64,000 bases of DNA from Prochlorococcus marinus str. MIT 9401 (GCF_000760095.1 NZ_JNAR01000002.1:1-64000), one strand, 5' to 3'; shown: positions 7,224 to 41,534, counted from the stretch's first letter. Made by a program: numbers and translations. The notes: generated by a model not told the origin, from the letters alone.

Positions 7224-7245
7224 GGATTCAAAATTGACCATAACC

Positions 7246-10089: not shown

Positions 10090-10103
10090 GGTACAAATGT
10101 ATT
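10090..10103. promoter_or_regulatory. Candidate LexA box upstream of lexA
   Basis: The 14-mer GGTACAAATGTATT fits the cyanobacterial LexA-box consensus as I recall it (RGTACNNNDGTWCB) with one mismatch, T for C near the 3' end. It lies 16 bp before the lexA start and directly abuts the TATAAA-like hexamer at 10106-10111, so a bound repressor would block RNA polymerase. This fits autoregulation. Confidence 0.5.
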
Positions 10104-10105
10104 AG

Positions 10106-10111
10106 TATAAA
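10106..10111 (+). promoter_or_regulatory. Candidate -10 box of lexA
   Basis: TATAAA sits eight bases before the lexA ATG. If used, transcription would begin at or next to the start codon, giving a nearly leaderless mRNA. It directly follows the putative LexA box. Confidence 0.35.
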
Positions 10112-10119
10112 TTTGCTTT

Positions 10120-10737
10120 ATGGTATTTTCTGAAGAAAATAATCTTACTGATGCTCAAAATGAGCTTTATGGTTGGATAAAGAATTATATGAAAACTTTT
10201 CAACATAGTCCATCAATTCGACAGATGATGAAAGCTATGGGTTTAAAATCTCCCGCTCCAATTCAAAGTCGATTGAGACATTTGCAAGAAAAAGGATACA
10301 TTTCATGGCAAGAAGGCAAAGCTAGAACTATGCAAATAGTTGATGAAATAATTGAGGGTGTGCCTATTATGGGTTCTGTTGCAGCAGGAGGTTTAATTGA
10401 AACTTATTCTGATGTGCAAGAAAACTTAGATATTTCTGATGTTTTAAGAAAGAAAAATGTATTTGCCCTAACGGTTAACGGAGATTCAATGATAGATGCT
10501 TGCATTGCTGATGGAGATATGGTTCTAATGGAGCCTATTAGTGATTCTTATTCTCTAAAGAATGGAACAATTGTTAGTGCAATGGTTCCAGGCTTGGGAA
10601 CTACTTTGAAATATTTTTTTAAAAGAAAAGGGAAAATATTTCTTGAGGCAGCAAATCCTGCTTATGATCCAATTGAGCTAAATGATGATGCAGTAATTTT
10701 TCAAGGAAAACTATTAGCCGTTTGGAGAAAAATTTAG
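10120..10737 (+). CDS. lexA: LexA repressor
   Basis: A 205-residue SOS-type repressor and self-cleaving serine protease. The N-terminal winged helix-turn-helix is visible as SPSIRQMMKAMGLKSPAPIQ followed by SRLRHLQEKGYI. The cleavage site Ala-Gly lies in GSVAAGGLIE, the catalytic serine in VNGDSMIDACIADGD, and the catalytic lysine in TTLKYFFKRKG, so the protein should be cleavable on RecA activation. ATG at 10120. It marks the end of the housekeeping block; all genes to its right concern surface polysaccharide. Confidence 0.96.
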   Translation: MVFSEENNLTDAQNELYGWIKNYMKTFQHSPSIRQMMKAMGLKSPAPIQSRLRHLQEKGYISWQEGKARTMQIVDEIIEGVPIMGSVAAGGLIETYSDVQENLDISDVLRKKNVFALTVNGDSMIDACIADGDMVLMEPISDSYSLKNGTIVSAMVPGLGTTLKYFFKRKGKIFLEAANPAYDPIELNDDAVIFQGKLLAVWRKI

Positions 10738-10867
10738 AGAAATATTTAAAAGTGATTGGTATTTATATTTTTCAAATAACTGGTATTTAAAATTAAAGTA
10801 CTAATTATGCTAATATTTTTGTATTAATTATTAGAAAATTTCAAGGATTTAAATCTATAAATATTAA

Positions 10868-12061
10868 ATGAATAAACAAATAAGTTCTATTAGATTAATC
10901 AGGCTTTTTAGATACTTAACTGTCTTATGTTTTTTTAATTTTCAAAATGTTATCCTTTCTGATGAATTTGTAGTCGATAATGAAAATGCTTCAAATAAAT
11001 CTAAAATTTTCTATCCAGAGAAACCAAATTTAAATGGAAACGAATATATTCTCTCAGGTGGGGATCTCATCAATATAGATTTTGCAGGTATTAAAGCTTA
11101 TAGTGGCCAATATTATGTAGATCCAGATGGCAATTTATTTTTACCTGATATAGGTATTTACAATGTAGAGGGTAAGACATTAAATGAATTAAGAAAGGAA
11201 TTATTAAATTCATATAGAGATTTTATTTTTGAACCTGAAATTACACTTCAAATCCAAAGCTATAGGCCAGTAAATGTATATTTAAGAGGTGAAGTAAGGA
11301 GTCCAGGACTGTACCGAGTAGAGTATGAAATTGTGAAAAAATCAAATACAACTTTCAACTCAACAAATGATTTTACTTCAAATAATTCATTTTCATCAAA
11401 TAGTCCATTTTCTTTAAATAGTCCATTAAGCAATGACAATCTAAAAAGCTATCAATTGCCGCCAACACTTTTTGATGTACTAACTCAAGCTAAAGGATTT
11501 ACTAAAAGTGCTGATTTATCTGAGATAAAAATAATAAGAAACAATACTATTTCACAAGGTGGAGGGAAAATATCTGCCAAAATAAATCTTTTATCTCTGC
11601 TTTTAGAAGGAGATCAATCAGTAAATATAAGAATTTTTGATGGTGATACTATTGTGGTTCCAAAGTCAGAAAATTTGTTGAAAGACCAAATTTTAGAAAT
11701 ACAGCGGAGTAATCTTAGCCCAGAATTTATATCAGTATTCATTACTGGTAATGTAAGAAAAGGCGGTGAAATATCTTTAAAAAAAGGTGCAAGTTTAAAC
11801 CATGCAATAGCTTCTACTGGTGGTAAAAAAATTCTTACAGGTAATATAGAATTTATAAGATTCAAGTATGACGGAGAGACAGATAAATCCCTCTTCAGAT
11901 ATGATTCAAATGCTCCAATTGCTTCCAAAAGAAACCCTATATTAATGGATGGTGATATTATCAATGTGAGAAGAACACCAATTGGTGCTGCAACAGAAAT
12001 TTTAGGTGAGATTTCTTCCCCAGTTTTAAGTGGTTATGGTCTCTACAATATTTTTAACTAA
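10868..12061 (+). CDS. Wza-type polysaccharide export protein with SLBB domains
   Basis: A 397-residue exported protein. An N-terminal hydrophobic stretch (about residues 13-32) looks like a signal sequence. Next comes a poly_export domain, YILSGGDLINIDFAG and YYVDPDGNLFLPDIG, then SLBB blocks with VNVYLRGEVRSPGLYRV and a second repeat near FISVFITGNVRKGGEISL. Family members form the outer-membrane channel for capsule or O-antigen-like polymers. I see no clear lipobox, so lipid anchoring is unproven. A serine/asparagine-rich stretch at about residues 160-193 interrupts the first SLBB region. It is two bases from the following wzz-like gene, so the two form an export operon opening the island. 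Confidence 0.88.
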   Translation: MNKQISSIRLIRLFRYLTVLCFFNFQNVILSDEFVVDNENASNKSKIFYPEKPNLNGNEYILSGGDLINIDFAGIKAYSGQYYVDPDGNLFLPDIGIYNVEGKTLNELRKELLNSYRDFIFEPEITLQIQSYRPVNVYLRGEVRSPGLYRVEYEIVKKSNTTFNSTNDFTSNNSFSSNSPFSLNSPLSNDNLKSYQLPPTLFDVLTQAKGFTKSADLSEIKIIRNNTISQGGGKISAKINLLSLLLEGDQSVNIRIFDGDTIVVPKSENLLKDQILEIQRSNLSPEFISVFITGNVRKGGEISLKKGASLNHAIASTGGKKILTGNIEFIRFKYDGETDKSLFRYDSNAPIASKRNPILMDGDIINVRRTPIGAATEILGEISSPVLSGYGLYNIFN

Positions 12062-12063
12062 AA

Positions 12064-13734
12064 ATGAATTTTAATGCTTCTAAAAATATGAATTCTAATT
12101 TCAATGAAGGCGAAGATGAAATAAATATACAAGAAATTGTTAATTACTTATTTAAGAGAAGATTTCTAGTTTCAGGAGTAACATTTTTTGTGACAGCTTT
12201 TGGAGTTGTTTTCTCTTTAATACAAAAACCTATTTATAAAGGTGAGTTTCAAATAGTCGTTGCTGGACAAAAATCAGAAAGTATTTTAAGTCAAGCAGCT
12301 GGGGCATTTGGAAATTTAACTGGAGGAGCTTTTGAATTACCTGGAGTTTCAAGTACAGAAATAAAAACGCAAGAATTCATATTAAAAAGTCCTTCCGTGC
12401 TAATGCCTGTTTATCAATTTTCAAAACAAAAATACAATGAAAGAGGAGAGAATAGTGAAAACCTAAGTTTTAAATCATGGAGAAAAAAATTCTTAAATAT
12501 CGAATTTGAGAAAAAAACTACAGTATTAAATATAACGTTTTTAGACAATGATAAAGATTTAATTTTAGAAGTACTAAATAAAATTTCCTCTAAGTATAAA
12601 GACTACTCTAGGAAGGACAGAATAAAATTATTAACAAAAGGAATATCTTATCTTGAAAGCCAACAAAAAATTTTGAAAAGCAATTCAATTCAATCTTTAA
12701 AAAATTTGAATGAATTTTCTATTGAAAATGGCTTGGGAGATATAGATGGATTTGTTGCGTTGGGGAATAATATCAATGGGTTTGGAGTTGAAAAATTTAA
12801 TAATTCTATATTAAATAAACTATCAGAATTAGAGGGTATCTCAAACCTTAATCTAAGAGCGGGAGGTGGAGCAATCCCAAATCTTAATTTAAGAACAGGC
12901 GGCGGTGGAACAGGAGCAGGACAACGTTTTACTTCTCAATTCTCATTATTAGAGCAATATGAATCACAATACACTGATTATTCTTCTAAGTTAAAACCAG
13001 AATCAGGATTGATGAAAGACTTAAAAGCTAAAATAGATAATCTTAGATCTTCATTAAAAAGACCAAATGAAATTTTAATTAAATATAGAGAATTAACATC
13101 AATATCTAGGCGAGATGAGGCTCTCCTCAATCAAATTGAGGATCAATTAGTATCTTATAAGTTGGAGCAAGCCAATAAGCAAGATCCCTGGGAATTAATT
13201 TCAGAACCAACAATTGCAGACTTACGAATCTATCCCAAAAGGAAAAGTATTGTAGCTTTATTTGGCTTTTCAGGTTTATTTTTAGGGATATCACTTGCAT
13301 ATTTAAGGGATAAGGCTAGAGGTTTAATTACAGGATTCAATGAAATTAAGCGTTTAATTGATCCAAAATTCTTAGATAATCTTTTTATAAGAAATAAATC
13401 TTTAAGTAATCAACTCCTCCAGAACTTTTTTAAAAATAATGAAGAATTTCAAAATGTTAAAAATGGAAATTGTATTTTAATGATTTCAAATCGTTCTTCA
13501 GCTATTGAAAATGAATTTTTAAATTATGTTTTGAAAAATAATGATAAATTAGTATCTATAGAATTTAGCGAAATCGATAAAATTAATAATTTTGATAATA
13601 TTGTCATTTTTATTAGCTCCCATGAAGTAAAAAGAAAAGATTTATTTTTATTGAATCAATACTACAAACTAAATCAAAGAAAAATAGTAGGGTGGTTTTA
13701 CCTTGATTGTTCGGAAAAAATTAACCTTTCATAA
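12064..13734 (+). CDS. Wzz/chain-length determinant protein (polysaccharide co-polymerase), no functional kinase domain
   Basis: A 556-residue inner-membrane protein with the Wzz topology: cytoplasmic INIQEIVNYLFKRR, first membrane helix about residues 35-53, a large periplasmic helical region, and a second helix near VALFGFSGLFLGISLAYL (about 397-415) preceded by a proline-containing RIYPKRKS segment. Such proteins set glycan chain length and work with a Wza channel. After the second helix about 135 residues follow where many homologues carry a tyrosine kinase, but I see no Walker A or B motif and no tyrosine cluster. A glycine-rich imperfect tandem repeat (SNLNLRAGGG, then PNLNLRTGGGG) lies around residues 260-285. 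Confidence 0.85.
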   Translation: MNFNASKNMNSNFNEGEDEINIQEIVNYLFKRRFLVSGVTFFVTAFGVVFSLIQKPIYKGEFQIVVAGQKSESILSQAAGAFGNLTGGAFELPGVSSTEIKTQEFILKSPSVLMPVYQFSKQKYNERGENSENLSFKSWRKKFLNIEFEKKTTVLNITFLDNDKDLILEVLNKISSKYKDYSRKDRIKLLTKGISYLESQQKILKSNSIQSLKNLNEFSIENGLGDIDGFVALGNNINGFGVEKFNNSILNKLSELEGISNLNLRAGGGAIPNLNLRTGGGGTGAGQRFTSQFSLLEQYESQYTDYSSKLKPESGLMKDLKAKIDNLRSSLKRPNEILIKYRELTSISRRDEALLNQIEDQLVSYKLEQANKQDPWELISEPTIADLRIYPKRKSIVALFGFSGLFLGISLAYLRDKARGLITGFNEIKRLIDPKFLDNLFIRNKSLSNQLLQNFFKNNEEFQNVKNGNCILMISNRSSAIENEFLNYVLKNNDKLVSIEFSEIDKINNFDNIVIFISSHEVKRKDLFLLNQYYKLNQRKIVGWFYLDCSEKINLS

Positions 13735-18702: not shown

Positions 18703-18876
18703 AAAATATATTAAATAAATTTAATTATTTGATTTACATAAATATAATAAAAAATTAATTGAACTTGTATTTTTTCTTATAATTTCAGAATAATTATTTA
18801 GAGCTTTCAATAAACTATAATTTTAAAATAAAGATTAAAGATTACTTAAAAGTAATTGCATATTTCTCTAAAACTT

Positions 18877-19998
18877 ATGAAATTTTCCTTTATCGAAGTT
18901 TTAAGCTTTACCAGATATAGCTCTATAGGAATAATTTCTACACTTACTAATTACCTTATTTTTATTTTTTTTCTGCATGTTTTAGGTTTTGGTGTAACTC
19001 CAGCATTAATAATGGGATATTTAACTGGTTGTTTAATTTCTTTCCATTTTGGAAGAACATGGATTTTTGGAGTAAGAAATAGTTTTAAATTTACTCAACT
19101 TCTAAAATTTCTTATAAGTTATGCCATAGGATGTTTTCTTCTAAGCATAATAAGTAATTTTGTTGATAAATATATAATAAATTCTTCCCTAAAGTGGTTA
19201 ATTTCTACCCTACCAATCATTGCTGTTAACTATAGCTTATTAAGATTATGGGTTTTTGAAAATAATAAACAAATAAAAGATAAAAGGTGGGGTGGGATAT
19301 CTAAAATTGAATTTTTGCAAGTAATTGCTTCAAGATTAATATCTTATTTGAACCCTGCAGTTACTCATAATTTAGAAAAATATTATGCTATTAAAAAAGC
19401 ATTTTATTTATCTTGTATAGAGGATATTGAGGGAGACTATTTAGAATTTGGTGTGTTTGAAGGATCATCATTCTCGCATGCTATGAGATGTTACTTAAGT
19501 AAGAAAATATATATGCCTTTAAAAGAAAAAAAAATAATTAGATTTTTTGGATTTGATTCCTTTGAAGGTTTTGGACAACTAACTGAAGATGATAAGCATC
19601 CTTTCTATATCGACGAGCAATTTAAAACTTCTTATGAATTCGTTGAAAGAAAAATAAAAACAGTTAGTAATAAAAACTCAATAGAAGCACATCTCATAAA
19701 AGGTTTTCTTAATGAAACACTGAAAAATGGTCCGCAAAAATATAATATTAAAAAGGCTAGAATTATTTTTATTGACTTGGATTTATATGAACCAAGTTTA
19801 GAAGCTTTATTTTTCTGTCAAAATTTATTCCAGGAAGGCACAATATTAATATTAGATGACTTTTTTTCTTACAAAGGATCACTTAATAAAGGAGTAGCTA
19901 AAGCCTTTGAGAATTTTAAAAATCAAACTAAATTTAAATTTAGAGAAATAGTCTCTTATGGAATGGGTGGTAAAGTTTTTATATGTTGTGAAAAATGA
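18877..19998 (+). CDS. GtrA-like membrane domain fused to TylF/MycF-type O-methyltransferase
   Basis: A 373-residue fusion. Residues about 5-130 form a GtrA-like domain: RYSSIGIISTLTNYLIFIFF, then FHFGRTWIFG and two further membrane helices ending near LLRLWVF. GtrA proteins are thought to flip polyprenyl-phosphate sugars. Residues about 170-373 match the TylF/MycF macrocin O-methyltransferase family: DYLEFGVFEGSSFSHAM, FFGFDSFEGFG, ARIIFIDLDLYEPSLEAL and ILILDDFFSYKGS, with the Asp pairs that bind metal. I chose ATG at 18877 over an in-frame TTG at 18856. Tethering the methyltransferase to the membrane suggests it acts on a lipid-linked sugar. Confidence 0.82.
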   Translation: MKFSFIEVLSFTRYSSIGIISTLTNYLIFIFFLHVLGFGVTPALIMGYLTGCLISFHFGRTWIFGVRNSFKFTQLLKFLISYAIGCFLLSIISNFVDKYIINSSLKWLISTLPIIAVNYSLLRLWVFENNKQIKDKRWGGISKIEFLQVIASRLISYLNPAVTHNLEKYYAIKKAFYLSCIEDIEGDYLEFGVFEGSSFSHAMRCYLSKKIYMPLKEKKIIRFFGFDSFEGFGQLTEDDKHPFYIDEQFKTSYEFVERKIKTVSNKNSIEAHLIKGFLNETLKNGPQKYNIKKARIIFIDLDLYEPSLEALFFCQNLFQEGTILILDDFFSYKGSLNKGVAKAFENFKNQTKFKFREIVSYGMGGKVFICCEK

Positions 19999-20045: not shown

Positions 20046-22010
20046 TTATTTCTCACTAATATTATAAATACTAAGTGAAGCACCATTTATATTATTAAAT
20101 GTATTTATAAATTTACCCTTTTCTTCCAATTTTTCAACTAATTTTAAAAGATGAATATTTGCATTACTTTTTATAAAATTACCTCTAGTTACTAGAAGAT
20201 AACTTATTTTATTTTTATTTAGAGTGTCTAAAATTTCTTCACTGCCTTTTCCATTTTTTATTAAATCATCAAGTAATTTTTGGTTATTAGATATTTTTTT
20301 AATTTCTGTATTTGATGCTCCGGCATGAATATAAATCATTGAATTTACAATTTTTTGTTGAGAAATAATTGCAAAATCTTGGTTTGCTCTTGAATTGAGC
20401 ATGTATTGTATAGCTTTTTTTATTGGAAATGCTGGAGGATAATCAAATCTTTTTTTATAAAAATGACTACTCTTTTGGAGATAATTAAGATCATTACCTG
20501 AATAATTAATATAGTTTGAATTTAAGGCGATAATGGATAGAGGTATAAAAGAAAAATAAAGATTTTGAATTTTAATATTAGAAATAATATCCGCAGATAT
20601 AAGCATGCCAAATATTACTATTCCTCCTCCTAAATACTCTGCAAAATATCTTGGAACAGCATAATTATTTTCATTAGTTAGCAGAAAGATAATTGGAGAC
20701 CAAATCAAAGCAATTAATATAAGATAATCTTTAGTAAAGAAATTTGAGAAATTAATATTTTTTTTAACCAAAATTAAACTTAAAAATAATATGCAATAGA
20801 TAAATATCATAACAAACCCATTTTCTCCAATAGAGGATAATAGATAGTAAATATATTTCTTAAAGGATAATAAATTTATTGATTTTTCATTATTAGTCAT
20901 CTCTCTTAATGAGGAGTTACCAACTATTAAAGTGGTAATTGTTTGAAGCAAGGTAGTTAAAGAAAGAAGTGAAAAAAATAAAAAATCTTTCAAATATTTT
21001 TTATTTTTTTCAAATAAAAAAGTAGCCCAATAAATTGGCAATACTAATATTGAAGTAAACCTAATTAAAGATAAGATCGTTATTAAAAAATAACCAGATT
21101 TTATATATTCTTTTTGATTTGTGTTTTTATAATTAATAAAATATGCTGCTGCAATAAGCCAAGCACTTGTTGACCAGGTGGATTGTTCAACTAATGATGC
21201 AGTTAAGATATTTAAAGGTATGTATGCGCTTGCTATTAATGAAATAAAAAAGATAATTTTTGTGTAATTATTTTGATTTGAAATATTTCTATCAATATAA
21301 ATTGAATTTGCTAATAAACCTACTGAAAAGCTGTAAAAAACTAAACCAGGTAGTCTTGCGCTTGTACTACTTATTCCTAAAAAAACCTGGCTAAGCCAGA
21401 TAGGAAATCTACTAAGAATAGGAAAGCTATCTAAGATCTGAATACCCATTAAATTATATAAAATCAAAATCACAAAAATATATAGACTTAAATAACTAAA
21501 TTGCAAAATTCTAGTATTATATTTTTTTCTTATTAAAAAAATTGCTCCAAGAATTGTAGAAAGAATAATTATATTGAAAATTGCTATTAGCCAAATACTA
21601 GGAGTAGATGAAAAATTAAATAAACTTGAGTTTTCTATAATAATATTTAACGTTCTATAGCCTAATAAACTTTTTTGGTAATGAACCAACTCGTCATTTG
21701 CAAGTGGTAGATTTAGAAATTCTCGAAGTGATATAAGTGCTAAAGAAAATATTGTTAGGCTAGTAAATAAACCATATAGTTCATATCTAACTATAATTCG
21801 AAAATTCTTAAATTTTAAAGCTATAAAACTTATAAAAGTAGCAATTAAAAAAAATACAAAAGCTTCTGGAATATTTAATTTGTTAGAAATTATATAAGAG
21901 GGCATTCTTGAAATACCTAAACACCAAATTCCAATTATTGCAACAATACTATCTGTGCTTAAGTATTTTGTTCCAAATGTTTTTGTTTTTATTTTCTCTA
22001 TAAAGTTCAT
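20046..22010 (-). CDS. Large polytopic membrane protein, probable GT-C glycosyltransferase
   Basis: A roughly 654-residue protein with more than ten hydrophobic helices and a C-terminal soluble domain of about 130 residues. The first loop after two or three helices carries NLPLANDELVHYQKSLLG with an Asp-Glu pair, and ARLPGLVFYSFSVGLLANS is reminiscent of ArnT/PMT-type (PMT_2) transferases. These would move a sugar from a polyprenyl phosphate to a glycan on the outer side of the membrane. Specific donor and acceptor are unknown. ATG at 22010 is preferred to a TTG at 22025. It converges with the GtrA fusion gene. Confidence 0.65.
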   Translation of the reverse strand: MNFIEKIKTKTFGTKYLSTDSIVAIIGIWCLGISRMPSYIISNKLNIPEAFVFFLIATFISFIALKFKNFRIIVRYELYGLFTSLTIFSLALISLREFLNLPLANDELVHYQKSLLGYRTLNIIIENSSLFNFSSTPSIWLIAIFNIIILSTILGAIFLIRKKYNTRILQFSYLSLYIFVILILYNLMGIQILDSFPILSRFPIWLSQVFLGISSTSARLPGLVFYSFSVGLLANSIYIDRNISNQNNYTKIIFFISLIASAYIPLNILTASLVEQSTWSTSAWLIAAAYFINYKNTNQKEYIKSGYFLITILSLIRFTSILVLPIYWATFLFEKNKKYLKDFLFFSLLSLTTLLQTITTLIVGNSSLREMTNNEKSINLLSFKKYIYYLLSSIGENGFVMIFIYCILFLSLILVKKNINFSNFFTKDYLILIALIWSPIIFLLTNENNYAVPRYFAEYLGGGIVIFGMLISADIISNIKIQNLYFSFIPLSIIALNSNYINYSGNDLNYLQKSSHFYKKRFDYPPAFPIKKAIQYMLNSRANQDFAIISQQKIVNSMIYIHAGASNTEIKKISNNQKLLDDLIKNGKGSEEILDTLNKNKISYLLVTRGNFIKSNANIHLLKLVEKLEEKGKFINTFNNINGASLSIYNISEK

Positions 22011-22126
22011 TAGTGCTTTTTTCAATCTTAATTAGTTTATATCTTTATAACTTATGTAGATTGATAATAATGTTGTAGCATTATAAATCATTTTAATATA
22101 AGATTATTCATATTTAAGCTATTTAA

Positions 22127-23149
22127 GTGAATAATATAGATGCTGAAAAATTCTATTTAGCTTCTGAAACTATCGGCAAAGATATTAATCTTATTCAGGG
22201 AGCAGGAGGAAATACCTCATACAAAGAGGGGGAATCATTAATAGTAAAAGCCTCAGGATGTAAATTAAAAAAAGCAAGACAAGAAAAGATATTTGTTAAT
22301 TTAAATAGAAATAAGATTATAAAGCAATTATCAAAAAATGATAATGATCTGGAACAATCTTTTGAATACGAGAAGATTAAATTGAGACCATCAATAGAAA
22401 CATCAATGCATGCTGTAATACCCCATAAATATGTTTTTCATGTTCATTGTCTAAATACTCTGGGATTAATAGTTCAAGAAGGTTTTGAAGTTTATTTAAA
22501 AGATATTTTTGAAGATCTTAATTATGCAATTATTAAATATGTAAAACCTGGTATTTCTTTAGCCAAAGAAATTAGTAAAGTGTTTTCAAATTCAATACCC
22601 GATGTTTTATTTCTTTCCAATCATGGTTTGGTTGTTGGAGGAGAAGATTTAGATAAAATTATTGAAAAGATTTACTTCATATCAAATAAGTTAAAAAATA
22701 ATAAAAAAGAATATAAAAAATTAAATCATCATTCATTAGAAAATTTATCAATTAATTCTTTATTTCGCCCCACTTCTTTTTTAGAGGCGCATCAATTGGC
22801 CGCCTCAAAAAGATCAATAAATATAGCCAGTTCTGGCTCTCTTTATCCTGATCATGTTGTTTTTTTAGGTCCAAGTACATTATCAATTAATAATATTTCA
22901 GAATTTAATGATTTAAATTATTTCTTTAACAATAAAAAAAAATTACCAGTGATAATTTATAAAGATCTTGGTGTTTTGGTCCCTAAAGATATTAGCTATG
23001 AAGCTGAAGAGATGGTACTTGCTCTTTCAAGAGTTGTTTCGAATATTCCTGAAAATTCCAAAATTAATTATCTTACAAAGTTTCAAGAAAATGAATTAAT
23101 AAATTGGCCTGCAGAAACTTATAGATTTAAATTAAATTCATTAAATTAG
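22127..23149 (+). CDS. Class II aldolase/adducin family protein
   Basis: A 340-residue protein with the class II aldolase fold. NLIQGAGGNTSYKEG near the N-terminus is the phosphate-binding loop, VFHVHCLNTLGLIV supplies two zinc-ligand histidines, and FLSNHGLVVGG supplies a third. Enzymes of this fold are zinc aldolases, epimerases or decarboxylases acting on phosphorylated sugars. The C-terminal 130 residues extend beyond a minimal domain. The start is GTG at 22127. The next gene's ATG begins directly after this stop, so the two are translationally linked; this suggests the product feeds nucleotide activation. The exact reaction cannot be read from sequence. Confidence 0.82.
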   Translation: MNNIDAEKFYLASETIGKDINLIQGAGGNTSYKEGESLIVKASGCKLKKARQEKIFVNLNRNKIIKQLSKNDNDLEQSFEYEKIKLRPSIETSMHAVIPHKYVFHVHCLNTLGLIVQEGFEVYLKDIFEDLNYAIIKYVKPGISLAKEISKVFSNSIPDVLFLSNHGLVVGGEDLDKIIEKIYFISNKLKNNKKEYKKLNHHSLENLSINSLFRPTSFLEAHQLAASKRSINIASSGSLYPDHVVFLGPSTLSINNISEFNDLNYFFNNKKKLPVIIYKDLGVLVPKDISYEAEEMVLALSRVVSNIPENSKINYLTKFQENELINWPAETYRFKLNSLN

Positions 23150-24718
23150 ATGCAATTAATTATCCCAATGTCTGGTTTAGGCCAGAGATTCCAGAAAGCT
23201 GGTTATAAGATTCCAAAACCTTTAATTGAAGTAGAAGGGAAAATAATTGTTGAGCATATTTTAGAAATGTTTCCAGGAGTTAATAAGGTAATTTTTATTT
23301 GTAATAAGGATCATTTAAGAAATCCCAATTTTAAAATGCGTGAAAAGTTATTAAAATTAAATGTAAATGCAAAAATTATTTCTATTGATCAGCATAAAAA
23401 AGGCCCTATTCACGCTGTTTTAAAGTGTCTAAGTTATATAGATTTGGATGAAGCAACTATAGTTAATTATTGCGATTTTAATTGTATATGGGATTATAAA
23501 AAATTTATTAAGCATGTTAAAAACACAAATTGTGATGGATGTGTTGTCACATACACTGGATTTCATCCGCATATGGTTGGTAATACTAATTATGCATATG
23601 TAAAACTTTATAAAGACAAAATTATAGATATACAAGAGAAAAAGCCTTTTACAAATAACCCTATGAGTGAGCATGCATCAAGTGGGACTTATTATTTTAA
23701 ATCAGGAGAAATAATGTCTAAGTACTTTAAAAAGACTGTAGATGAAGATTTAAATACTAAAGGAGAATATTATGTCTCAATGAGTTATAAACCGATGATT
23801 AATGATAATTTAAATCTTAATATTTTTAATCTAGACAAATTTATGCAATGGGGAACACCTGAAGATCTTGAAGAATATAAATGGTTTTCAGAATTATTTA
23901 AAGTAAAAAATAACCCTTCGTATACAAAAAATTTTAAAATAGAAGGTAATACTCTAATCCCATGCGCAGGATTAGGAAAAAGATTTTCAAGAGAAGGATA
24001 TCTTTTACCCAAACCTCTTATAAAAGTATCAAAAAAACCTATGTTGATTCAGGCTTTGAATTATTTGCCTTCAACTAATAATCTTCAAATCGTTTTTAGA
24101 AATTCAATGAAAGGGGTTAATTCTCTTATGAAAGAAGTTAAAAAATATTATCCACAATCTAGTTTTTATTTATTAGATAGAGAAACAAATGGCCAGGCAG
24201 AAACTTGTACTTATGGGGCTAAATCTTTAAATAATGATTTACCTCTAACTATAAGTGCATGTGATAATGGGATACTATATAATCCTGATAATTTTAAGAA
24301 GCTTTTAAAAGATAAATCAATAGACATAATAGTATGGGGTTGTAAAAATTATCCAGGAGCAAAGAGGAATCCTGAAATGTATGGATGGATCGAAGAGAAA
24401 AATAATTTAATTAAAAAGATTCATGTAAAAAAAATTTATCAAGATCCTAAGTTAGATCCAATAATTATTGGCACTTTTACATTTAAAAAAGGTTCTTTTT
24501 TCCTTTCTTCAGTAAATGATTTAATGCAAAACGGTTCAAAAGTTAATGGTGAATATTATGTTGATAGCTCTATAAATCATGCTATTGAAATGGGATATAA
24601 AGTTGTATATTTCCCAGTAGATTTTTATCTTTGCTGGGGTACTCCTAATGATTTAAAAACCTATGAATATTGGGATAATTGCTTTTCATCTTGGGCAAAT
24701 CATTCTTATAAAAGATAA
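23150..24718 (+). CDS. Two-domain sugar nucleotidyltransferase (tandem NTP_transferase domains)
   Basis: A 522-residue protein made of two nucleotidyltransferase domains in tandem. Domain 1 (about 1-255) opens with LIIPMSGLGQRFQKAGYKIP followed by KPLIEVEGK; domain 2 (about 262-522) opens with TLIPCAGLGKRFSREGYLLP followed by KPLIKVSKK. Both keep the GxGxRF...KPLI signature and end in matching QWGTPEDLEEY and CWGTPNDLKTY blocks, so it is an internal duplication in which both halves look intact. The family transfers NMP to sugar 1-phosphates. The nucleotide and sugar are unknown. It is probably co-expressed with the upstream aldolase. Confidence 0.85.
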   Translation: MQLIIPMSGLGQRFQKAGYKIPKPLIEVEGKIIVEHILEMFPGVNKVIFICNKDHLRNPNFKMREKLLKLNVNAKIISIDQHKKGPIHAVLKCLSYIDLDEATIVNYCDFNCIWDYKKFIKHVKNTNCDGCVVTYTGFHPHMVGNTNYAYVKLYKDKIIDIQEKKPFTNNPMSEHASSGTYYFKSGEIMSKYFKKTVDEDLNTKGEYYVSMSYKPMINDNLNLNIFNLDKFMQWGTPEDLEEYKWFSELFKVKNNPSYTKNFKIEGNTLIPCAGLGKRFSREGYLLPKPLIKVSKKPMLIQALNYLPSTNNLQIVFRNSMKGVNSLMKEVKKYYPQSSFYLLDRETNGQAETCTYGAKSLNNDLPLTISACDNGILYNPDNFKKLLKDKSIDIIVWGCKNYPGAKRNPEMYGWIEEKNNLIKKIHVKKIYQDPKLDPIIIGTFTFKKGSFFLSSVNDLMQNGSKVNGEYYVDSSINHAIEMGYKVVYFPVDFYLCWGTPNDLKTYEYWDNCFSSWANHSYKR

Positions 24719-24846
24719 TTTTTAGGTTACTAAAAATAAAATAATAATTAAAAATAAGATTTTTATAAACTACATTTTTTGTAAATTTGACTTTTGAAAA
24801 TGTATATTTAAAATAAATCTAGAGAATTAAATAACTATATAAATAA

Positions 24847-25545
24847 ATGGTTTTATATTCACTTGTGATACCCTGTTTTAATGAATCAAAAAATATAACT
24901 TTATTATTAGAAAGAATAAATGATTATAAAAAACTTCATAATTTTGAATTGATTCTTGTTAATAATGGTTCAAATGATGATACAAAAAATTTATTACAAG
25001 ATATAAGTCTTAAGTATAAATTTTTAAGGATTGTAGAAATTAAAAAAAATATTGGATATGGTCATGGAATAATTAAAGGATTAAAATCCTCTAAAGGAGA
25101 AGTAATTGGATGGACACATGCAGATATGCAAACTGATCCTATTGATGTTTTTAAAGGATTTGAAATATTTAGAAATCTTAAGAATCCTCAGAACTTATTT
25201 GTTAAAGGAGTAAGAAAAAAAAGAAAAATTTTAGATAATTTTTTTTCAATAGGAATGTCATTAATAGCTTCAATTTTTTTAAAAACTTTTTTGTGGGATA
25301 TAAATGCACAACCAAATTTATTTCATAAAAAATTTTTCAATAAACTTAATAGTTTGCCAAATGATTTCTCCTTAGATTTATATTTGTTATATATGGCAAG
25401 GAAACAAAAATTAAAAATAGCTAGGTTTCCAGTTTTTTTTTATGATAGAAAATTTGGAGAATCAAGCTGGAATAAAGGCTTAAAATCCAAATTTATTTTT
25501 ATAAAAAGAAATTTTAATTATATTTTAAAATTATCATTTTCTTAG
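24847..25545 (+). CDS. Family 2 glycosyltransferase (DPM1-like)
   Basis: A 232-residue GT-A fold glycosyltransferase. YSLVIPCFNESKNITLLLER is the classic GT2 opening, followed by LILVNNGSNDDT and the DxD-like GWTHADMQTDP, matching the polyprenyl-phosphate mannose/glucose synthase branch. It has only one hydrophobic patch (about residues 132-148), so it may associate with the membrane peripherally. It probably makes a polyprenyl-phosphate sugar used by the GT-C enzymes nearby. It starts about 130 bp after the nucleotidyltransferase and 6 bp before the GDPD-like gene. Confidence 0.85.
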   Translation: MVLYSLVIPCFNESKNITLLLERINDYKKLHNFELILVNNGSNDDTKNLLQDISLKYKFLRIVEIKKNIGYGHGIIKGLKSSKGEVIGWTHADMQTDPIDVFKGFEIFRNLKNPQNLFVKGVRKKRKILDNFFSIGMSLIASIFLKTFLWDINAQPNLFHKKFFNKLNSLPNDFSLDLYLLYMARKQKLKIARFPVFFYDRKFGESSWNKGLKSKFIFIKRNFNYILKLSFS

Positions 25546-25551
25546 AAATAA

Positions 25552-26136
25552 ATGGAACTAATAGCTCATAGAATAAATACTGTAAAGCTTTTAAAACAAA
25601 TCCCCTTGAGCTGTGGAGTAGAAATTGATATAAGAACCGAAAATAATAATTTTATTTTGGCGCATGATCCTTTCCAAAAAGGAGAAAACTTAATTAAATG
25701 GTTAGAATATTTTGAGCATAAAATTTTGATTCTTAATGTAAAAGAGGAAGGTTTAGAAAAAGATCTTTTAAAAATAATGAAAAAATTTTCAATAAAAGAT
25801 TTCTTCTTTTTAGATCAATCATTTCCTTTCTTGGTCAAAACATCTTTTTCAGGAGAAAGTAGAACTGCAATAAGATTTTCAGAATTTGAATCTATTGAGA
25901 ATGCTTATAAACTTGCTAGGAAAATTGATTGGGTATGGGTAGATTTTTTTAATAAATTTCCTTTGGAATTTACTCAATTTAAAATTCTTAAAAAATATGG
26001 TTACAAGATTTGTATTGTTTCTCCTGAATTGCAGGGCAAAAGTTTTGAGATTGTAAAGGATCTCAAAGATTATTTAAAAATAAATAGAATTAAACCTGAT
26101 GCAATTTGCACTAAATTATTGGATTTTTGGTCATGA
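25552..26136 (+). CDS. GDPD/PLC-like TIM-barrel phosphodiesterase-like protein
   Basis: A 194-residue protein. MELIAHRINTVKLL (HR at residues 5-6), GVEIDIRTENNNFILAHDPF (Glu/Asp near 24-26, His-Asp near 35-36) and ILNVKEEGLEKDLL reproduce the HR...E.D...HD pattern of glycerophosphodiester phosphodiesterases. It is shorter than typical 240-residue GDPDs and lacks a signal peptide, so it should be cytoplasmic. It might hydrolyse, or be modified to act on, a phosphodiester intermediate. Its stop overlaps the next gene's ATG (ATGA), and the GT2 gene ends 6 bp upstream; so it belongs to the cassette. Confidence 0.72.
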   Translation: MELIAHRINTVKLLKQIPLSCGVEIDIRTENNNFILAHDPFQKGENLIKWLEYFEHKILILNVKEEGLEKDLLKIMKKFSIKDFFFLDQSFPFLVKTSFSGESRTAIRFSEFESIENAYKLARKIDWVWVDFFNKFPLEFTQFKILKKYGYKICIVSPELQGKSFEIVKDLKDYLKINRIKPDAICTKLLDFWS

Positions 26137-28160
26137 ATATCAATTCTATTTTTTCTAGTAAGAGTTTTTATTTAGGTTTATTTATAAGAGTTATATTTAT
26201 AATTTTTTTTGTACCAATAATACATATAGATTTATTTAATAACTTTATAATTCATTCTATTCAAAATCCTTCAATTGACCCTTGGGATAGTTTTCTTTCT
26301 AACGGAGGAGATCCACTTAGTTTTCCTTATGGATACATAATGCTTGCATTTTTGTCTCCTCTTTCATTTTTTGGTTTGATTATAGGATCGATATTTAATA
26401 ATTCGATTTATTTTTCCTCTTTAGGACTAGGCCTTTCTTTTTTACTAATTGACTATAGTGGACTTTTAATTTTTTCAAAGATATTTCCAAAAAATATTAA
26501 TGAAATTATTTCATATTACTGGCTTTCACCTTTATTGATTTATGTAACTTATTTTCATGGGCAGTTGGATTTACTTCCCTCTTTGATAATGTTATGCGGC
26601 TTTTTTTGCTTGATGAAGAGAAAGTTTAGTCTTTCAGGTTTTGTTTTTGGTATTGCATGCGCAGCAAAGTTAAGTATGGTCTTGGCAATTCCTTTTACTT
26701 TAATTTATCTTTGGCAAAATATGCGGTTGAGAGCGGCTTTTAGACCTTTTATTTTTTATTTTTGTTTAACAACAACTTTTCTATCATTAATTCCTTCCTT
26801 TCTTGAAGGATATAGAAAAATGGTTTTAGGAACTCCCCTAAAAAATAATATATTTTGGTTTTCAGTATCTTTTGATGGATTTACGATTTATATTTTGCCA
26901 ATAGTTTTCTCTATTTTAATTTATTTAATGTGGAGAATGTTAAAAACTAATTATGATCTTTTGGTCTCTTTTACAGGTATTTCATTTCTAATATCAATAT
27001 TAATGATGCCTCCAAATCCTGGCTGGTATTTATGGTCTTTACCATTTCTAATTTTTTATCAAATAAAAACTGATCTTCAAGGTAAATTTTTAATATCTCT
27101 TTTCTCAATTTTTTCAGTAATCCTACTATATCCTTTACATTCAGGATCTAATAATATTATATTCAAATCTTTCAATATATATAATGAGAATTCTAATAAT
27201 TCATTCATATATTCAATAATTTTATTCTTAGGCGTAATTATATGTCTTAGGTGGTATAGGGAAAGTATACAGAAAAATGATTATTTTATTTTAAGTAGAA
27301 GACCTCTTTGTATTGGGATTTCAGGTTCATCTCAAAGTGGTAAAAAACAATTATGTAATAATTTAAAAGATGTTTTTGGAGAAAGCTCTGTTAATCATAT
27401 TGATAGTAATAAATATCATAAGTGGTCAGATTATTCACCAATGAGGAGAACCTCTTCAATAAATGACCCCTTGAATTTTGATCTGTTAAAACTTTCTCAG
27501 ATTTTACAATTAAGCAAATTTAATAATTTTAATGAATTATCAAATAATAATAAGTTCCTAAGAAAATTAAATTTTCCGTCAAAAAGAATGGATTCAATAA
27601 TTATTTGTACTGGAATGCATATTTTTGCAGCAGATTCTTTAGCTGACAAATTTGATATAAAAATATTTATGGATCCTGCATTAAAGTTAAAGAAATTTTG
27701 GACAGAAGATTCTAAGAATAAAGTAAATGATGATTATTCTAAAGATTCAAAAAAGTTTAAAAATATATTTTTAAAACAAAAAAAAGTTTCGGATATAATT
27801 TTTTCAATAAAGCCGGTTAATGAAGATTTAAATGGTAAAGAACTTTTAGAAAAAATTCCTTTGAAATTAAAAGTTTATTTTTCAGATGCAATATTTGTTG
27901 ACAGATTATCTAAAGCTTTAATTTCAATATGCGGGGTTAAACTTGATAGTCAGATTAATTATGATAACCTATCAGCTATTATGACAATAGAAGGGGAAGT
28001 ATGGTCTGGTGATATAGAGTTGTTAGCTTTGCATCTGATACCTAATCTAGAAGAATTTTTAGATTTAAAACCCAAGTGGCAAGATGACGTATTTGGCATA
28101 ATGCAAATTATAGTTCTTTTGCAGATAGACCATACTTTGAATAAAGTTTATTTAAAATGA
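26133..28160 (+). CDS. Polytopic membrane protein fused to a PRK/uridine-kinase-like domain
   Basis: A 675-residue fusion. Residues about 1-385 hold around ten membrane helices resembling GT-C mannosyltransferases (WDSFLSNGGDPLSFPYGYIM in the first loop; LMMPPNPGWYLWSLPFLIFY later). From about residue 395, a P-loop kinase-like domain begins with CIGISGSSQSGKKQLCNNL, followed by NHIDSNKYHKWSDYSP as in uridine kinase and phosphoribulokinase. The canonical GxxxxGK[ST] ends in Lys here rather than Ser/Thr, so catalysis is uncertain. The C-terminal 100 residues are unassigned. I use ATG at 26133, giving an ATGA overlap with the GDPD-like gene; the downstream HAD gene also overlaps by ATGA. Confidence 0.72.
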   Translation: MNINSIFSSKSFYLGLFIRVIFIIFFVPIIHIDLFNNFIIHSIQNPSIDPWDSFLSNGGDPLSFPYGYIMLAFLSPLSFFGLIIGSIFNNSIYFSSLGLGLSFLLIDYSGLLIFSKIFPKNINEIISYYWLSPLLIYVTYFHGQLDLLPSLIMLCGFFCLMKRKFSLSGFVFGIACAAKLSMVLAIPFTLIYLWQNMRLRAAFRPFIFYFCLTTTFLSLIPSFLEGYRKMVLGTPLKNNIFWFSVSFDGFTIYILPIVFSILIYLMWRMLKTNYDLLVSFTGISFLISILMMPPNPGWYLWSLPFLIFYQIKTDLQGKFLISLFSIFSVILLYPLHSGSNNIIFKSFNIYNENSNNSFIYSIILFLGVIICLRWYRESIQKNDYFILSRRPLCIGISGSSQSGKKQLCNNLKDVFGESSVNHIDSNKYHKWSDYSPMRRTSSINDPLNFDLLKLSQILQLSKFNNFNELSNNNKFLRKLNFPSKRMDSIIICTGMHIFAADSLADKFDIKIFMDPALKLKKFWTEDSKNKVNDDYSKDSKKFKNIFLKQKKVSDIIFSIKPVNEDLNGKELLEKIPLKLKVYFSDAIFVDRLSKALISICGVKLDSQINYDNLSAIMTIEGEVWSGDIELLALHLIPNLEEFLDLKPKWQDDVFGIMQIIVLLQIDHTLNKVYLK

Positions 28161-28903
28161 CATTTAATATAATTAATAAAAAATCATTTATTGAAATACC
28201 CAAGGCAATTATTTTTGATACAGACAACACACTGTACCCATATAAGCCATCTCATAAAGTAGCATTAAAGGCTGCAATTAATAAAGCATCAAAAATTCTT
28301 TCTATTTCAGAAAGTGAATTTAAGAAAGCTTATTTAATTTCTAGGGAGGAAGTTAAATATAGATTGGGTGAAGTTGCTAGTTCGCATAGCCGATTATTGT
28401 ATTTTCAAAGAGCCATTGAAATTCTAGGTCTCCAATCTCAGATATTGCTTTCATTAGACTTAGAACAAACTTATTGGAGAACTTTTTTGCAAAATAGTGA
28501 ATTATTTCCTAATGTAATTGAACTATTAAAAATCTTAAAAAAACAAAATATTAAGACTGCAATTGTCACTGATTTGACTGCTCAAATTCAATTCAGAAAA
28601 ATTATATATTTTGGTTTAGAAGATTATTTTGACTACATAGTCACTTCAGAAGAATCTGGAAAAGACAAACCTTTTCAAAATTCGTTTGAGTTAGTTCTCA
28701 AAAAATTAGATATTGAGGCAAATAAGTGCTGGATGATTGGAGATTCTTTTAATTCGGATATGGTTGGATCTAATAAACTTGGTATAGTAAGTATTCATAA
28801 AAAAGAGAGGAGTCATTTCTTTAAAAAAGAAGTTTCTTATGTTGATGCAGAGTTTAGTGAATTTAAGTCCCTTCAAGATTTTTTCATAAGTAATATATTC
28901 TAG
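28157..28903 (+). CDS. HAD-superfamily hydrolase (pyrimidine 5'-nucleotidase-like)
   Basis: A 248-residue HAD phosphatase. Motif I is AIIFDTDNTLYPYKPSH (nucleophile Asp in FDTDNTLY), motif II is TAIVTDLTAQIQ, the motif III lysine falls in ESGKDKPFQNSF, and motif IV is CWMIGDSFNSDMVGSNKLG. The NTLYPY sequence is typical of the pyrimidine 5'-nucleotidase branch. It overlaps the fusion gene upstream by 4 bp (ATGA), so its substrate may be the phosphorylated intermediate of this cassette. It is the last plus-strand gene before about 220 bp of AT-rich DNA in which I see nothing. Confidence 0.88.
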   Translation: MTFNIINKKSFIEIPKAIIFDTDNTLYPYKPSHKVALKAAINKASKILSISESEFKKAYLISREEVKYRLGEVASSHSRLLYFQRAIEILGLQSQILLSLDLEQTYWRTFLQNSELFPNVIELLKILKKQNIKTAIVTDLTAQIQFRKIIYFGLEDYFDYIVTSEESGKDKPFQNSFELVLKKLDIEANKCWMIGDSFNSDMVGSNKLGIVSIHKKERSHFFKKEVSYVDAEFSEFKSLQDFFISNIF

Positions 28904-38646: not shown

Positions 38647-38707
38647 ATTTTTCTATGGTAATTATTATGGTCAATGATAAAATGGAATTTGGGTTTTAAT
38701 TTTTTTG

Positions 38708-39244
38708 GTGTATAAGGCCTTTTATAAATCTGTTTCAGAGGGTTGTTCTGATAAAGATATACAAAAGATAAGCGAACTAGCTAAAAAAGTTATAAATACT
38801 GATGGAAAGTTTTTATTTGCTGGTAATGGTGGCAGTATGGCTATATCATGCCACATATCTGCAGAACTAACTGGAAGATTTATTAAAGATAGGCCACCTA
38901 TAAAATCGTATGTCTTGGGCTCAAACTTATCTAGTACTACAGCTATTGCAAATGACTATAGCTTTTCAGATATTTTTTTAAGAGACTTAGGCTGTTTTCT
39001 TGAAAAAGAAGATTTGGTTATTTTGATGTCCACAAGTGGAAAAAGTAAGAACATTTTAGATTGTATTAATTATCTTAAAGAGAAAGAACATTTTAATTCA
39101 ATAATATTGACTGGTAAAACCTCAAATATATTTTCTCCCTCTTTAACCCATATTCAATCTCCTTCTACAGTTACTGCCAGAGTTCAAGAACATCACTTGT
39201 TCTTATTACATGAAATGTGTAATTTCATAGACAATTTATTTTAG
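38708..39244 (+). CDS. gmhA: Sedoheptulose 7-phosphate isomerase (SIS domain)
   Basis: A 178-residue SIS-domain enzyme, first step of ADP-heptose synthesis, converting sedoheptulose 7-phosphate to D-glycero-D-manno-heptose 7-phosphate. FLFAGNGGSMAISCHISAEL is the phosphate-binding block and LVILMSTSGKSKNIL the second Ser-rich sugar-phosphate block. The C-terminal VQEHHLFLLHEMCNFID carries the active-site Glu and His typical of GmhA. I start at GTG 38708 (MYKAFYKS); a TTG lies directly upstream. It begins the heptose operon, with hldD two bases after its stop. Confidence 0.92.
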   Translation: MYKAFYKSVSEGCSDKDIQKISELAKKVINTDGKFLFAGNGGSMAISCHISAELTGRFIKDRPPIKSYVLGSNLSSTTAIANDYSFSDIFLRDLGCFLEKEDLVILMSTSGKSKNILDCINYLKEKEHFNSIILTGKTSNIFSPSLTHIQSPSTVTARVQEHHLFLLHEMCNFIDNLF

Positions 39245-39246
39245 AA

Positions 39247-40182
39247 ATGAAAAAACTTTTGATTACTGGGGGATTAGGTTTTATTGGAAGTATTGCAGCT
39301 AATTACTTTCATAAGAAATTTCAAATATTAGTTTTCGATAATCCGAGAAATGAAATTATAGACTATTTTTCAAAGATACCTTTGAATTTAGTTTCACGTG
39401 AAGGAGGAATCCAAAAGATTTTTGATTTCAATCCAGATATAATTTTGCATTTGGGAGCAAAGTCTAACACTGACCTTGATAATGCCGATTTAGCTTACTT
39501 TAGTAATACCGATTTTACAAATAAACTAATTGATTACTCTATTAAGAGAAAAATAAAGCTTATTTATGCGAGTTCGGCCGCAACTTATGGTGATGGATCA
39601 AATGGATTTGATGATACTGATAAATTTCATGATTTAATTAAACTTAAGCCGCTTAATTTATATGGATGGAGTAAACATAATTCTGATTTATTTTTCTCTG
39701 ATTATTTAGATAATAATCCTAAATCAGAAAATATTATTGGATTAAAATTTTTTAATGTGTTTGGCAAGAATGAACTTCATAAAAAACATATGGCGAGTGT
39801 TATTTCAAAAATGATTCCAAAAATTAAAAATAACGAAAAAATTAATCTTTTTAAGCATTTCTATCAAGGTTTATATTGCGAGGCGGAGAGGGATTTTATT
39901 TTTGTTGATGATATTTGCAGGATCTTTGAATTACTAATGGGAATGGATTTTAAGTCTTCAATATATAATGTTGGGACTGGGACTTCTTCAAAATTTTCCA
40001 AACTAATTGAGGTAGGATTTAACTCACTAGGCAGGAAACCATTAATTGAATTTATTGATCTACCTAAGCAGTACCATGGTAAATACCAAATGAGAACAAA
40101 AGCTCCTATGAAAAGATTGATTAAATTGTTAAATGGATTTGAATTTACATCTATTGAAGACGCTGTTCCAAAACTTTTATGA
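39247..40182 (+). CDS. hldD: ADP-L-glycero-D-manno-heptose 6-epimerase
   Basis: A 311-residue short-chain dehydrogenase/reductase catalysing the final step of ADP-heptose synthesis. The Rossmann opening is LLITGGLGFIGSIAANYF. The catalytic Tyr-Lys pair is in LYGWSKHNSDLF and the Ser in YASSAATYGDG. HldD-specific segments GLKFFNVFGKNELHKKHMAS and FIDLPKQYHGKYQMRTKA distinguish it from GalE-type epimerases. It follows gmhA by two bases and overlaps hldE by four (ATGA). Confidence 0.93.
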   Translation: MKKLLITGGLGFIGSIAANYFHKKFQILVFDNPRNEIIDYFSKIPLNLVSREGGIQKIFDFNPDIILHLGAKSNTDLDNADLAYFSNTDFTNKLIDYSIKRKIKLIYASSAATYGDGSNGFDDTDKFHDLIKLKPLNLYGWSKHNSDLFFSDYLDNNPKSENIIGLKFFNVFGKNELHKKHMASVISKMIPKIKNNEKINLFKHFYQGLYCEAERDFIFVDDICRIFELLMGMDFKSSIYNVGTGTSSKFSKLIEVGFNSLGRKPLIEFIDLPKQYHGKYQMRTKAPMKRLIKLLNGFEFTSIEDAVPKLL

Positions 40183-41534
40183 AATTAGCAGTTTTAGGTG
40201 ATTTCCTGATTGATGAATTCATCTACTATCAAAGTTTGAGATTATCTCCTGAATCACCATGCCCTGTAGTAAATTTCCAGAAAAGTAGAAAAGTAGCAGG
40301 TGGAGCTGCCAATGTTGCCAATTCTTGTTTCTCTCTAGGGATAGAAGTATATTTTTTGTTTTGTTCCCCAAAAAATTTAATAAATAAAGATTTGTTATTT
40401 GATTATGAAATTTTTACATACACTAGGAATGATTTTGATCTGAGCATTAAGAAAAGGCATTGTGTAGATAATAGACAATTCTTCAGGGAGGATAAAGAGA
40501 CACCCTCAATTAACTTTAATGATTGCTTCGAAAATATTGATAAATGTATTGAATATATGAAAAATAATAAAATCACTGATTTATTGATAAGTGATTATCA
40601 AAAAGGGGCCTTAACCCCTAAAGAATTACAATATTTGCTTTTAGAAAGTAAAAAGTCCAAAATTAGGACTTTTGTAGATACCAAGATTAGTTCATCTGAA
40701 AATTTAAAAAATATTTATTTACTAAAACCCAATTTGAAAGAATTTAACCAATTAACTGGAATTCGTAATACATCATCTAATCGTTCGTTACTTATTGATG
40801 AACTAGAACTTCCTGCCCGCAAACTAATGCGCGAAAATTCAATAGAGAATTGCATAATTACACTTTCTGAAATGGGTTCGGTATGGTTTGGGGAAAATGA
40901 GACTATCTCATTTAAGTCTCCAAAAGTTTCGGTAATTGATATTGTTGGTGCAGGTGATTCCTTTATCTCAGCACTAGTTTTTACATACTTAAATAATGAA
41001 ACTTATACAAAGTACCAGAAATTAAAAATCGCAAATAACTTTGCAGAAATAACTATTAAAAAAGAGGGTACTAATCCTATTTGTAAAAGCTCACTTGATG
41101 AAGTTTTAAATAAAGTTGATATTGCTGAAATAGGATTTACAAATGGATGTTTTGATATTTTACATCCAGGACATATTTCTCTTTTAAAACAGGCTAAGAA
41201 AAGATGCAAATTTTTAATTGTTGGTTTAAATAGTGATGAATCAGTGAAGAGATTAAAAGGAAAAAAAAGGCCAATCAATTCAGAACTTGATAGAAAAAAG
41301 GTTTTAGAAAATATTAAGTTTGTGGATCAAGTAATAATTTTTAATGAAGATGATCCCTTAAATCTAATAAAAAAAATCAAACCAGATCTTCTTGTTAAGG
41401 GAGCAGATTACGATATAAAGAATGTTGTGGGAGCTGAATTTACAATAAAAAATGGAGGTAATGTTTTCTTGGCAAATTTGCTTAATACTAAAAGCACAAC
41501 AGAGAGAGTTCAAAATATAAATAATGAAGATTAA
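40179..41534 (+). CDS. hldE: Bifunctional heptose 7-phosphate kinase / heptose 1-phosphate adenylyltransferase
   Basis: A 451-residue two-domain enzyme. The N-terminal ribokinase-like domain (about 1-305) has RKVAGGAANVANSCFSLG and DIVGAGDSFISALVF with the catalytic Asp. The C-terminal cytidylyltransferase-fold domain (about 318-451) has FTNGCFDILHPGHISLL with the HxGH motif and KGADYDIKNVVGAEF. Both halves look intact and full length. It makes heptose 1,7-bisphosphate and later ADP-heptose. The stop overlaps the start of the broken gmhB homologue by 11 bp. Confidence 0.95.
   Translation: MKLAVLGDFLIDEFIYYQSLRLSPESPCPVVNFQKSRKVAGGAANVANSCFSLGIEVYFLFCSPKNLINKDLLFDYEIFTYTRNDFDLSIKKRHCVDNRQFFREDKETPSINFNDCFENIDKCIEYMKNNKITDLLISDYQKGALTPKELQYLLLESKKSKIRTFVDTKISSSENLKNIYLLKPNLKEFNQLTGIRNTSSNRSLLIDELELPARKLMRENSIENCIITLSEMGSVWFGENETISFKSPKVSVIDIVGAGDSFISALVFTYLNNETYTKYQKLKIANNFAEITIKKEGTNPICKSSLDEVLNKVDIAEIGFTNGCFDILHPGHISLLKQAKKRCKFLIVGLNSDESVKRLKGKKRPINSELDRKKVLENIKFVDQVIIFNEDDPLNLIKKIKPDLLVKGADYDIKNVVGAEFTIKNGGNVFLANLLNTKSTTERVQNINNED

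Follow-up and report, generated by a model that had tools for sequence, protein, structure and literature searches.

A block of six consecutive genes was analyzed in a 64,000-nucleotide stretch of the genome of Prochlorococcus marinus str. MIT 9401 (GCF_000760095.1, NZ_JNAR01000002.1:1-64000), referred to below as the window. According to the open reading frame (ORF) calls, all six genes are located on the plus strand at positions 22127-28903. The same six families were found together in many other bacteria, and they form one conserved functional unit. A surface-glycan role of this unit is well supported by its context. We consider it fairly probable that the unit is a self-contained, mobile cassette for surface-glycan conversion, which would carry its own precursor enzymes and be fed from ribulose-1,5-bisphosphate (RuBP).

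The first gene (22127-23149) encodes a class II aldolase-type enzyme of 340 amino acids with a conserved C-terminal extension (Pfam Aldolase_II, 1.1e-15). Its stop codon directly abuts the start of the second gene (23149/23150), which encodes a tandem double sugar-phosphate nucleotidyltransferase of 522 amino acids with two homologous domains (23150-24718; Pfam NTP_transferase in two stretches). These are followed by a GT2 glycosyltransferase of the GtrB/DPM-synthase type, a predicted polyprenyl-phosphate glycosyl synthase (24847-25545; Pfam Glycos_transf_2, 5e-18), and by a small cytosolic protein with the TIM barrel of the GDPD fold in its predicted structure (25552-26136). The fifth gene encodes a fusion protein composed of a GT-C membrane domain (26133-27290; weak GT87 match) and a degenerate phosphoribulokinase (PRK) domain, apparently a pseudokinase here (27294-28160; predicted structure and a weak Pfam PRK match). 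The last gene encodes a HAD phosphatase (28157-28903; HAD, 4e-26), whose closest model is RuBP 5-phosphatase. The stop of the GDPD-like gene and the start of the fusion gene share an ATGA overlap, as do the fusion and HAD genes, and the ATG at 26133 inside the first overlap is most likely the start of the fusion gene, rather than the TTG at 26127. The original prediction, made from the sequence, had described six co-directional genes coupled by one adjacent stop/start and two ATGA overlaps, and the ORF calls agree with it. Its domain calls were recovered by Pfam for the aldolase, nucleotidyltransferase, GT2 and HAD and by predicted fold for the GDPD-like protein, but the kinase proved to be degenerate in the window.

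A search of 300 Cyanobiaceae genomes using the fusion protein as query gave matches in seven genomes, which represent five genera. The order of the six genes was identical in each of them, while the flanks of the cassette were unrelated (the window and six others). Most of the relatives found across phyla, as described below, also displayed this gene order. A wider scan of the genome collection with the window fusion protein alone gave no match; an alignment of the GDPD-like protein succeeded instead. With this alignment, 84,980 species genomes were searched across phyla and 154 relatives were detected, of which 80 loci were kept. All six families were present in 61 of these 80 loci, and on a single strand in 60 of those 61. 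When only loci flanked by 4.5 kb or more on each side were counted, 51 of 58 contained the full set. The hosts were distributed in about eight phyla, namely Pseudomonadota, Cyanobacteriota, Acidobacteriota, Nitrospirota, Planctomycetota, Thermodesulfobacteriota, Myxococcota and Bdellovibrionota, several of them being metagenome bins for which the phylum is given as labelled. Because the 80 loci had been picked by one member of the set, the test was repeated from the double nucleotidyltransferase, and the full set was again detected in 12 of 13 Cyanobiaceae and four of five Gammaproteobacteria genomes. The original prediction had left it to a gene-neighbourhood search whether homologues ever co-occur elsewhere, and co-occurrence was clear.

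It could be argued that glycan islands merely gather unrelated genes and that no single pathway is encoded. The window is itself a large glycan island, and one Cyanobiaceae genome (L153) has neither the fusion nor the HAD gene. However, the same six families, mostly on one strand, occur in several phyla with unrelated flanks and are carried by a plasmid and phages. We count such chance gathering as already refuted by the co-occurrence, and it is extremely improbable. Prochlorococcus copies with the aldolase, nucleotidyltransferase, GT2 and GDPD-like genes but without the fusion and HAD genes were seen in two loci (L153 and L056). In Polynucleobacter necessarius (L043:10588-12680) the fusion gene is spread over several frames while the remaining cassette is intact, so that either the copy is broken or the sequence contains an error. 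No description of the cassette or of these family combinations was found in the open-access literature searched, which is weak evidence as subscription literature was mostly outside its scope; within that literature, the earlier statement that no named pathway contains this set held.

The cassette moves as a block and occurs at sites typical of serotype-conversion genes, which supports a self-sufficient surface-glycan modification. In Erwinia psidii it occupies the interval between the gnd and his genes, which is the usual O-antigen position in enterobacteria. On a 33 kb Escherichia coli plasmid (L146, NZ_CP145712.1:4923-17377), two IS26 copies flank the complete set of eight genes. A frameshifted gene for an AIDA-repeat protein adjoins the cassette there. 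Two of 5,426 E. coli genomes matched, and a match was obtained for a second E. coli plasmid (NZ_JCAPUP010000005.1). Two viral contigs of IMG/VR also carry the complete cassette. In L145 (UViG_3300034110_001068, locus 2775-12412) it is found beside genes for a CI-like repressor, an Rz-like spanin, an endolysin and a tail fibre, and in L144 beside portal and terminase genes. The annotated phage records searched for the cassette gave no match. On L144 and L145, the cassette appears to be a module for lysogenic conversion that brings a whole sugar-precursor pathway with it.

In most hosts, the fusion protein ends in an intact P-loop kinase domain. By profile search, the best PDB match of an intact homologue was the PRK of Synechococcus, with 191 bits versus 95 for uridine kinase. 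The residues of PRK that contact ribulose-5-phosphate (Ru5P) or ATP have been named, and an archaeal PRK was active on Ru5P only (PMC5241800). The equivalents of RsPRK His45, Arg49, Tyr98, His100, Lys165, Arg168 and Arg173 were identical in 56 of 56 intact homologues. At four sites that discriminate between PRK and uridine kinase, the homologues displayed His, Arg, His and Lys, while Udk of Erwinia displayed Tyr, Ser, Tyr and Arg. A uridine kinase identity was rejected on scores and residues, although RefSeq labels one copy as uridine kinase. Scores with the curated PRK model NF005655 were 130-211 bits, below the cut-off of 236. The sequence comparison strongly suggests that the fused kinase produces RuBP from Ru5P in most hosts. 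The PRK residues were largely lost in every Cyanobiaceae copy, including that of the window; the predicted structure of the window copy still matched PRKs over about 300 residues, ahead of uridine kinases. Judged from sequence and structure prediction, the window domain is a degenerate pseudo-PRK that would not work in this genome. A divergent but functional kinase was rejected for Cyanobiaceae and Nitrosomonas, in which the P-loop, the Ru5P contacts or both are lost.

The window HAD matched NF053830 (RuBP 5-phosphatase) with 178 bits, compared with 113 for the next model, and was the sole match to NF053830 in the genome. This model was best matched by the HAD of the cassette in each of the seven genomes tested (146-184 bits), other HADs scoring at most 69, and the lead of the cassette HAD over the next one exceeded 75 bits in every tested genome with another HAD match. 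These scores argue strongly that the HAD removes the 5-phosphate of RuBP, yielding ribulose-1-phosphate (Ru1P). A PRK-like kinase together with a HAD near RuBP 5-phosphatase makes ribulose bisphosphate a likelier entry compound than a polyol. In haloarchaea, a RuBP phosphatase is followed by a fuculose-aldolase-type enzyme, so that RuBP is converted to Ru1P and then to dihydroxyacetone phosphate (DHAP) and glycolaldehyde (PMC9700705). The cassette aldolase matched the PDB profile 3m4r (1e-24), and fuculose-1-phosphate aldolases were weaker. Residues E91, H105, H107 and H166 were invariant in 55 loci; we take the three histidines to be the zinc-binding triad and E91 to be the catalytic Glu. The window aldolase scored 25 bits with the Ru1P aldolase model NF053831 (cut-off 300) and was nearer to RhaD-type models than to this one. 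A role as L-ribulose-5-phosphate 4-epimerase is less likely, as the catalytic position carries an invariant Glu; epimerases of that type have Asp there. At the catalytic positions of the HAD and the aldolase, little or no variation was seen between loci, and loci with a dead kinase were no exception.

Dead kinases were identified in Cyanobiaceae, in three Nitrosomonas-type genomes and in one Nitrosospira, whose copy kept the P-loop and lost the equivalents of His45, Arg49 and His100. When the host genomes were searched for RuBisCO, those with it had 10 dead and four intact kinases, and those without it had no dead and 52 intact kinases; two Prochlorococcus single-cell assemblies, both incomplete and with no RuBisCO match, are not part of this count. 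Nitrospira, in which no RuBisCO was found, keeps the kinase, as do L121 and L122, non-photosynthetic members of the same phylum. Dead kinases were thus confined, where tested, to RuBisCO-bearing genomes, a pattern that a supply of RuBP by the Calvin cycle would predict. A phylogenetic tree of the membrane half indicated five kinase losses by parsimony, three of which are forced by well-supported branches. The simplest reading would be that a host with a Calvin cycle can do without the fused kinase, since the cycle provides RuBP.

The glycan role might be the same with another pentulose or hexulose phosphate as the substrate of the kinase, HAD and aldolase, and the link with RuBisCO would then be coincidental. 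The family assignments under the curated cut-offs and the RhaD-like tendency of the aldolase would fit such a substrate. On the other hand, all Ru5P contacts of PRK are invariant in the intact copies, and the dead kinases were all in RuBisCO-positive genomes where tested. A different substrate is therefore unlikely in our view, and RuBP remains the preferred precursor.

The GT2 protein matched dolichol-phosphate-mannose synthase in the PDB (3e-17), and the GT2 proteins, including that of the window, matched PHROG 841, "GtrB-like O-antigen conversion" (8e-21). In most relatives a GtrA protein is encoded between the nucleotidyltransferase and the GT2. In the window, GtrA was only found about 5 kb upstream of the GT2 as a fusion with a TylF-type methyltransferase (18856-19998, plus strand; Pfam GtrA_DPMS_TM, 6e-14, and TylF, 1e-10), and this protein is a candidate flippase for the cassette. 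A fusion of these two domains is unusual. A variable polytopic protein of 380 or more amino acids (roughly 400-800) was located near 45 of 55 complete loci, and among those compared with PHROG, the proteins of L108, L144 and L145 matched "glucosyltransferase". The large polytopic membrane protein adjoining the cassette in the window (20046-22025, minus strand), which has no Pfam or PHROG match, is a candidate acceptor-specific GT-C transferase. The membrane half of the fusion protein showed, besides weak GT87, matches to ALG3 in the homologue L108 and to GPI mannosyltransferase 1 by profile, and its predicted structure matched GPI mannosyltransferase I, a GT-C enzyme (9wno). GT2, GtrA and GT-C together constitute a Gtr-type export side.

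PDB matches of the nucleotidyltransferase were 4evw, GlmU and heptose-pathway enzymes, and the G-x-G-x-R...PKPLI motif is conserved in each of its two domains, along with an acidic site (64 loci). The GDPD-like protein was modelled by AlphaFold with a pLDDT of 96, and its best structural matches were bacterial and archaeal GDPDs (TMq 0.66-0.74); no Pfam or NCBIfam family matched it, GDPD models included. Its residues H6, R7, E24, D26, H38, N62 and K64 were near-invariant in 67 loci. With this active site conserved, the phosphodiester step suggested by the original prediction is possible.

Variant cassettes were also found. In a variant from the same genus (L113:10828-14709), a protein of 1,293 amino acids comprises kinase-like, ketose-bisphosphate-aldolase-like and ribulose-phosphate epimerase domains. 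The front end of L114 encodes a ribulose-phosphate epimerase, an isomerase-like barrel and two zinc dehydrogenases, one of them closest to galactitol-1-phosphate dehydrogenase. Both of these cyanobacterial variants keep the GT2, the GDPD-like protein and two nucleotidyltransferase domains. A distant set in cyanobacteria and non-photosynthetic relatives (L115-L119) combines a GDPD with a cupin-like protein, a HAD and two nucleotidyltransferases. A set related to the latter is present on a Pseudomonas aeruginosa plasmid (L150). Across the variants, the GDPD-like protein and two nucleotidyltransferase domains form the shared core, with pentulose phosphates recurring as input.

The conservation of the GDPD-like core in all variants might also indicate that a polyol or sugar phosphate is made, activated as a nucleoside diphosphate polyol and attached via its phosphate, with the GDPD-like enzyme trimming or remodelling the product. 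The dehydrogenases and epimerase of L114 could make a pentitol phosphate for this purpose. However, no LicD-like, TagF-like or other recognised polyol-phosphate transferase was seen, the main variant has no reductase or polyol dehydrogenase, the GT2/GtrA/GT-C set moves a sugar rather than a phosphate, and the kinase and HAD indicate RuBP. We consider a polyol route quite improbable. The earlier proposal of an unusual phosphorylated sugar or polyol attached to the surface glycan thus gained support for the joint role of the genes and for the attachment, from the co-occurrence, the Gtr set and the phage and O-antigen contexts, while its phosphorylated polyol lost ground to RuBP.

In the pathway that we favour, fed from RuBP, the intact fused kinase of most hosts would convert Ru5P to RuBP, and the HAD would remove the 5-phosphate to give Ru1P. 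In the Prochlorococcus host, in which the kinase has decayed, RuBP would be drawn from the Calvin cycle. The aldolase probably acts on Ru1P, either splitting it into DHAP and glycolaldehyde or catalysing a different aldol-type reaction. The double nucleotidyltransferase might then activate a product of the Ru1P route. The GT2 would load the sugar onto undecaprenyl phosphate and GtrA would flip it; the GT-C half of the fusion and the variable polytopic protein, a putative GT-C enzyme, would transfer it to lipopolysaccharide or a different glycan of the cell surface. A phosphodiester intermediate may be cleaved or recycled by the GDPD-like enzyme.

Several observations weigh against this pathway. 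Its weakest step is the activation, since neither Ru1P nor glycolaldehyde is an obvious substrate of a sugar-1-phosphate nucleotidyltransferase. The HAD scored below the curated cut-off of NF053830 (330), and membership in that family is not called. Four RuBisCO-positive genomes retain an intact kinase. Relatedness reduces the association between kinase and RuBisCO to three to five losses, and a paired test of kinase decay against RuBisCO on supported branches gave two cases for and none against (p 0.5), too few events for significance. Variant cassettes with other front ends also exist.

We consider the chances about even that RuBP, known mainly as the CO2 acceptor, also serves as the committed precursor for a surface glycan that is widespread and carried by phages and plasmids. 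In non-autotrophs the fused PRK would supply it, whereas marine picocyanobacteria and nitrifiers would draw on the Calvin cycle and would have let the kinase decay. If so, a widespread and unstudied gene set would have a role in surface variation, phage serotype conversion and perhaps phage defence. RuBP would be used outside carbon fixation and nucleoside breakdown, and carbon fixation and surface antigen synthesis would share a metabolite. The distribution of kinase decay and RuBisCO would represent a natural experiment in which host central metabolism shapes a mobile cassette.

Elsewhere in the window, the gene for a second small GtrA-like membrane protein (57081-57530) precedes one for a polytopic protein, and the two may belong to a further glycosylation set. 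Likely heptose-type sugar genes, read from the sequence as well, are located at 38705-42048 and encode a phosphoheptose isomerase-like protein, an epimerase, an HldE-like bifunctional kinase/cytidylyltransferase and a HAD.

The cassette resembles the three-component Gtr systems of phages and O-antigen loci in its GtrB-like GT2, its GtrA and its carriage by phages and plasmids, and the variable polytopic protein may correspond to their strain-specific GT-C protein. Classical Gtr systems consist of three genes and use a ready-made nucleotide sugar, whereas the cassette additionally encodes enzymes for the precursor, namely a nucleotidyltransferase with two such domains, a PRK-like kinase, a HAD, an aldolase and the GDPD-like protein, as well as a constant GT-C/kinase fusion. 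The GDPD-like protein shares the TIM-barrel fold and the His-Arg, Glu-x-Asp and His motif positions with GDPDs (2pz0, 7e0v), but it has only about 195 amino acids, no Pfam match and two nucleotidyltransferase domains beside it. It also displays Asn-x-Lys where GDPDs usually carry Glu-x-Lys. The intact homologues of the fused kinase share the fold, the P-loop and the listed Ru5P contacts with Calvin-cycle and archaeal PRKs (6hzk, 5b3f); unlike these, the kinase is fused to a GT-C membrane domain, is present in non-autotrophs and is degenerate in picocyanobacteria and Nitrosomonas. In comparison with the non-carboxylating pentose bisphosphate pathway of haloarchaea (PMC9700705), RuBP would come from a PRK-like kinase instead of a ribose-1,5-bisphosphate isomerase, the genes are located among glycan genes rather than those of nucleoside breakdown, and the sequences fall below the curated cut-offs. 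Both have a RuBP phosphatase-like HAD and a class II aldolase of the FucA fold, and RuBP, an intermediate of the haloarchaeal pathway, is probably one of the cassette as well.

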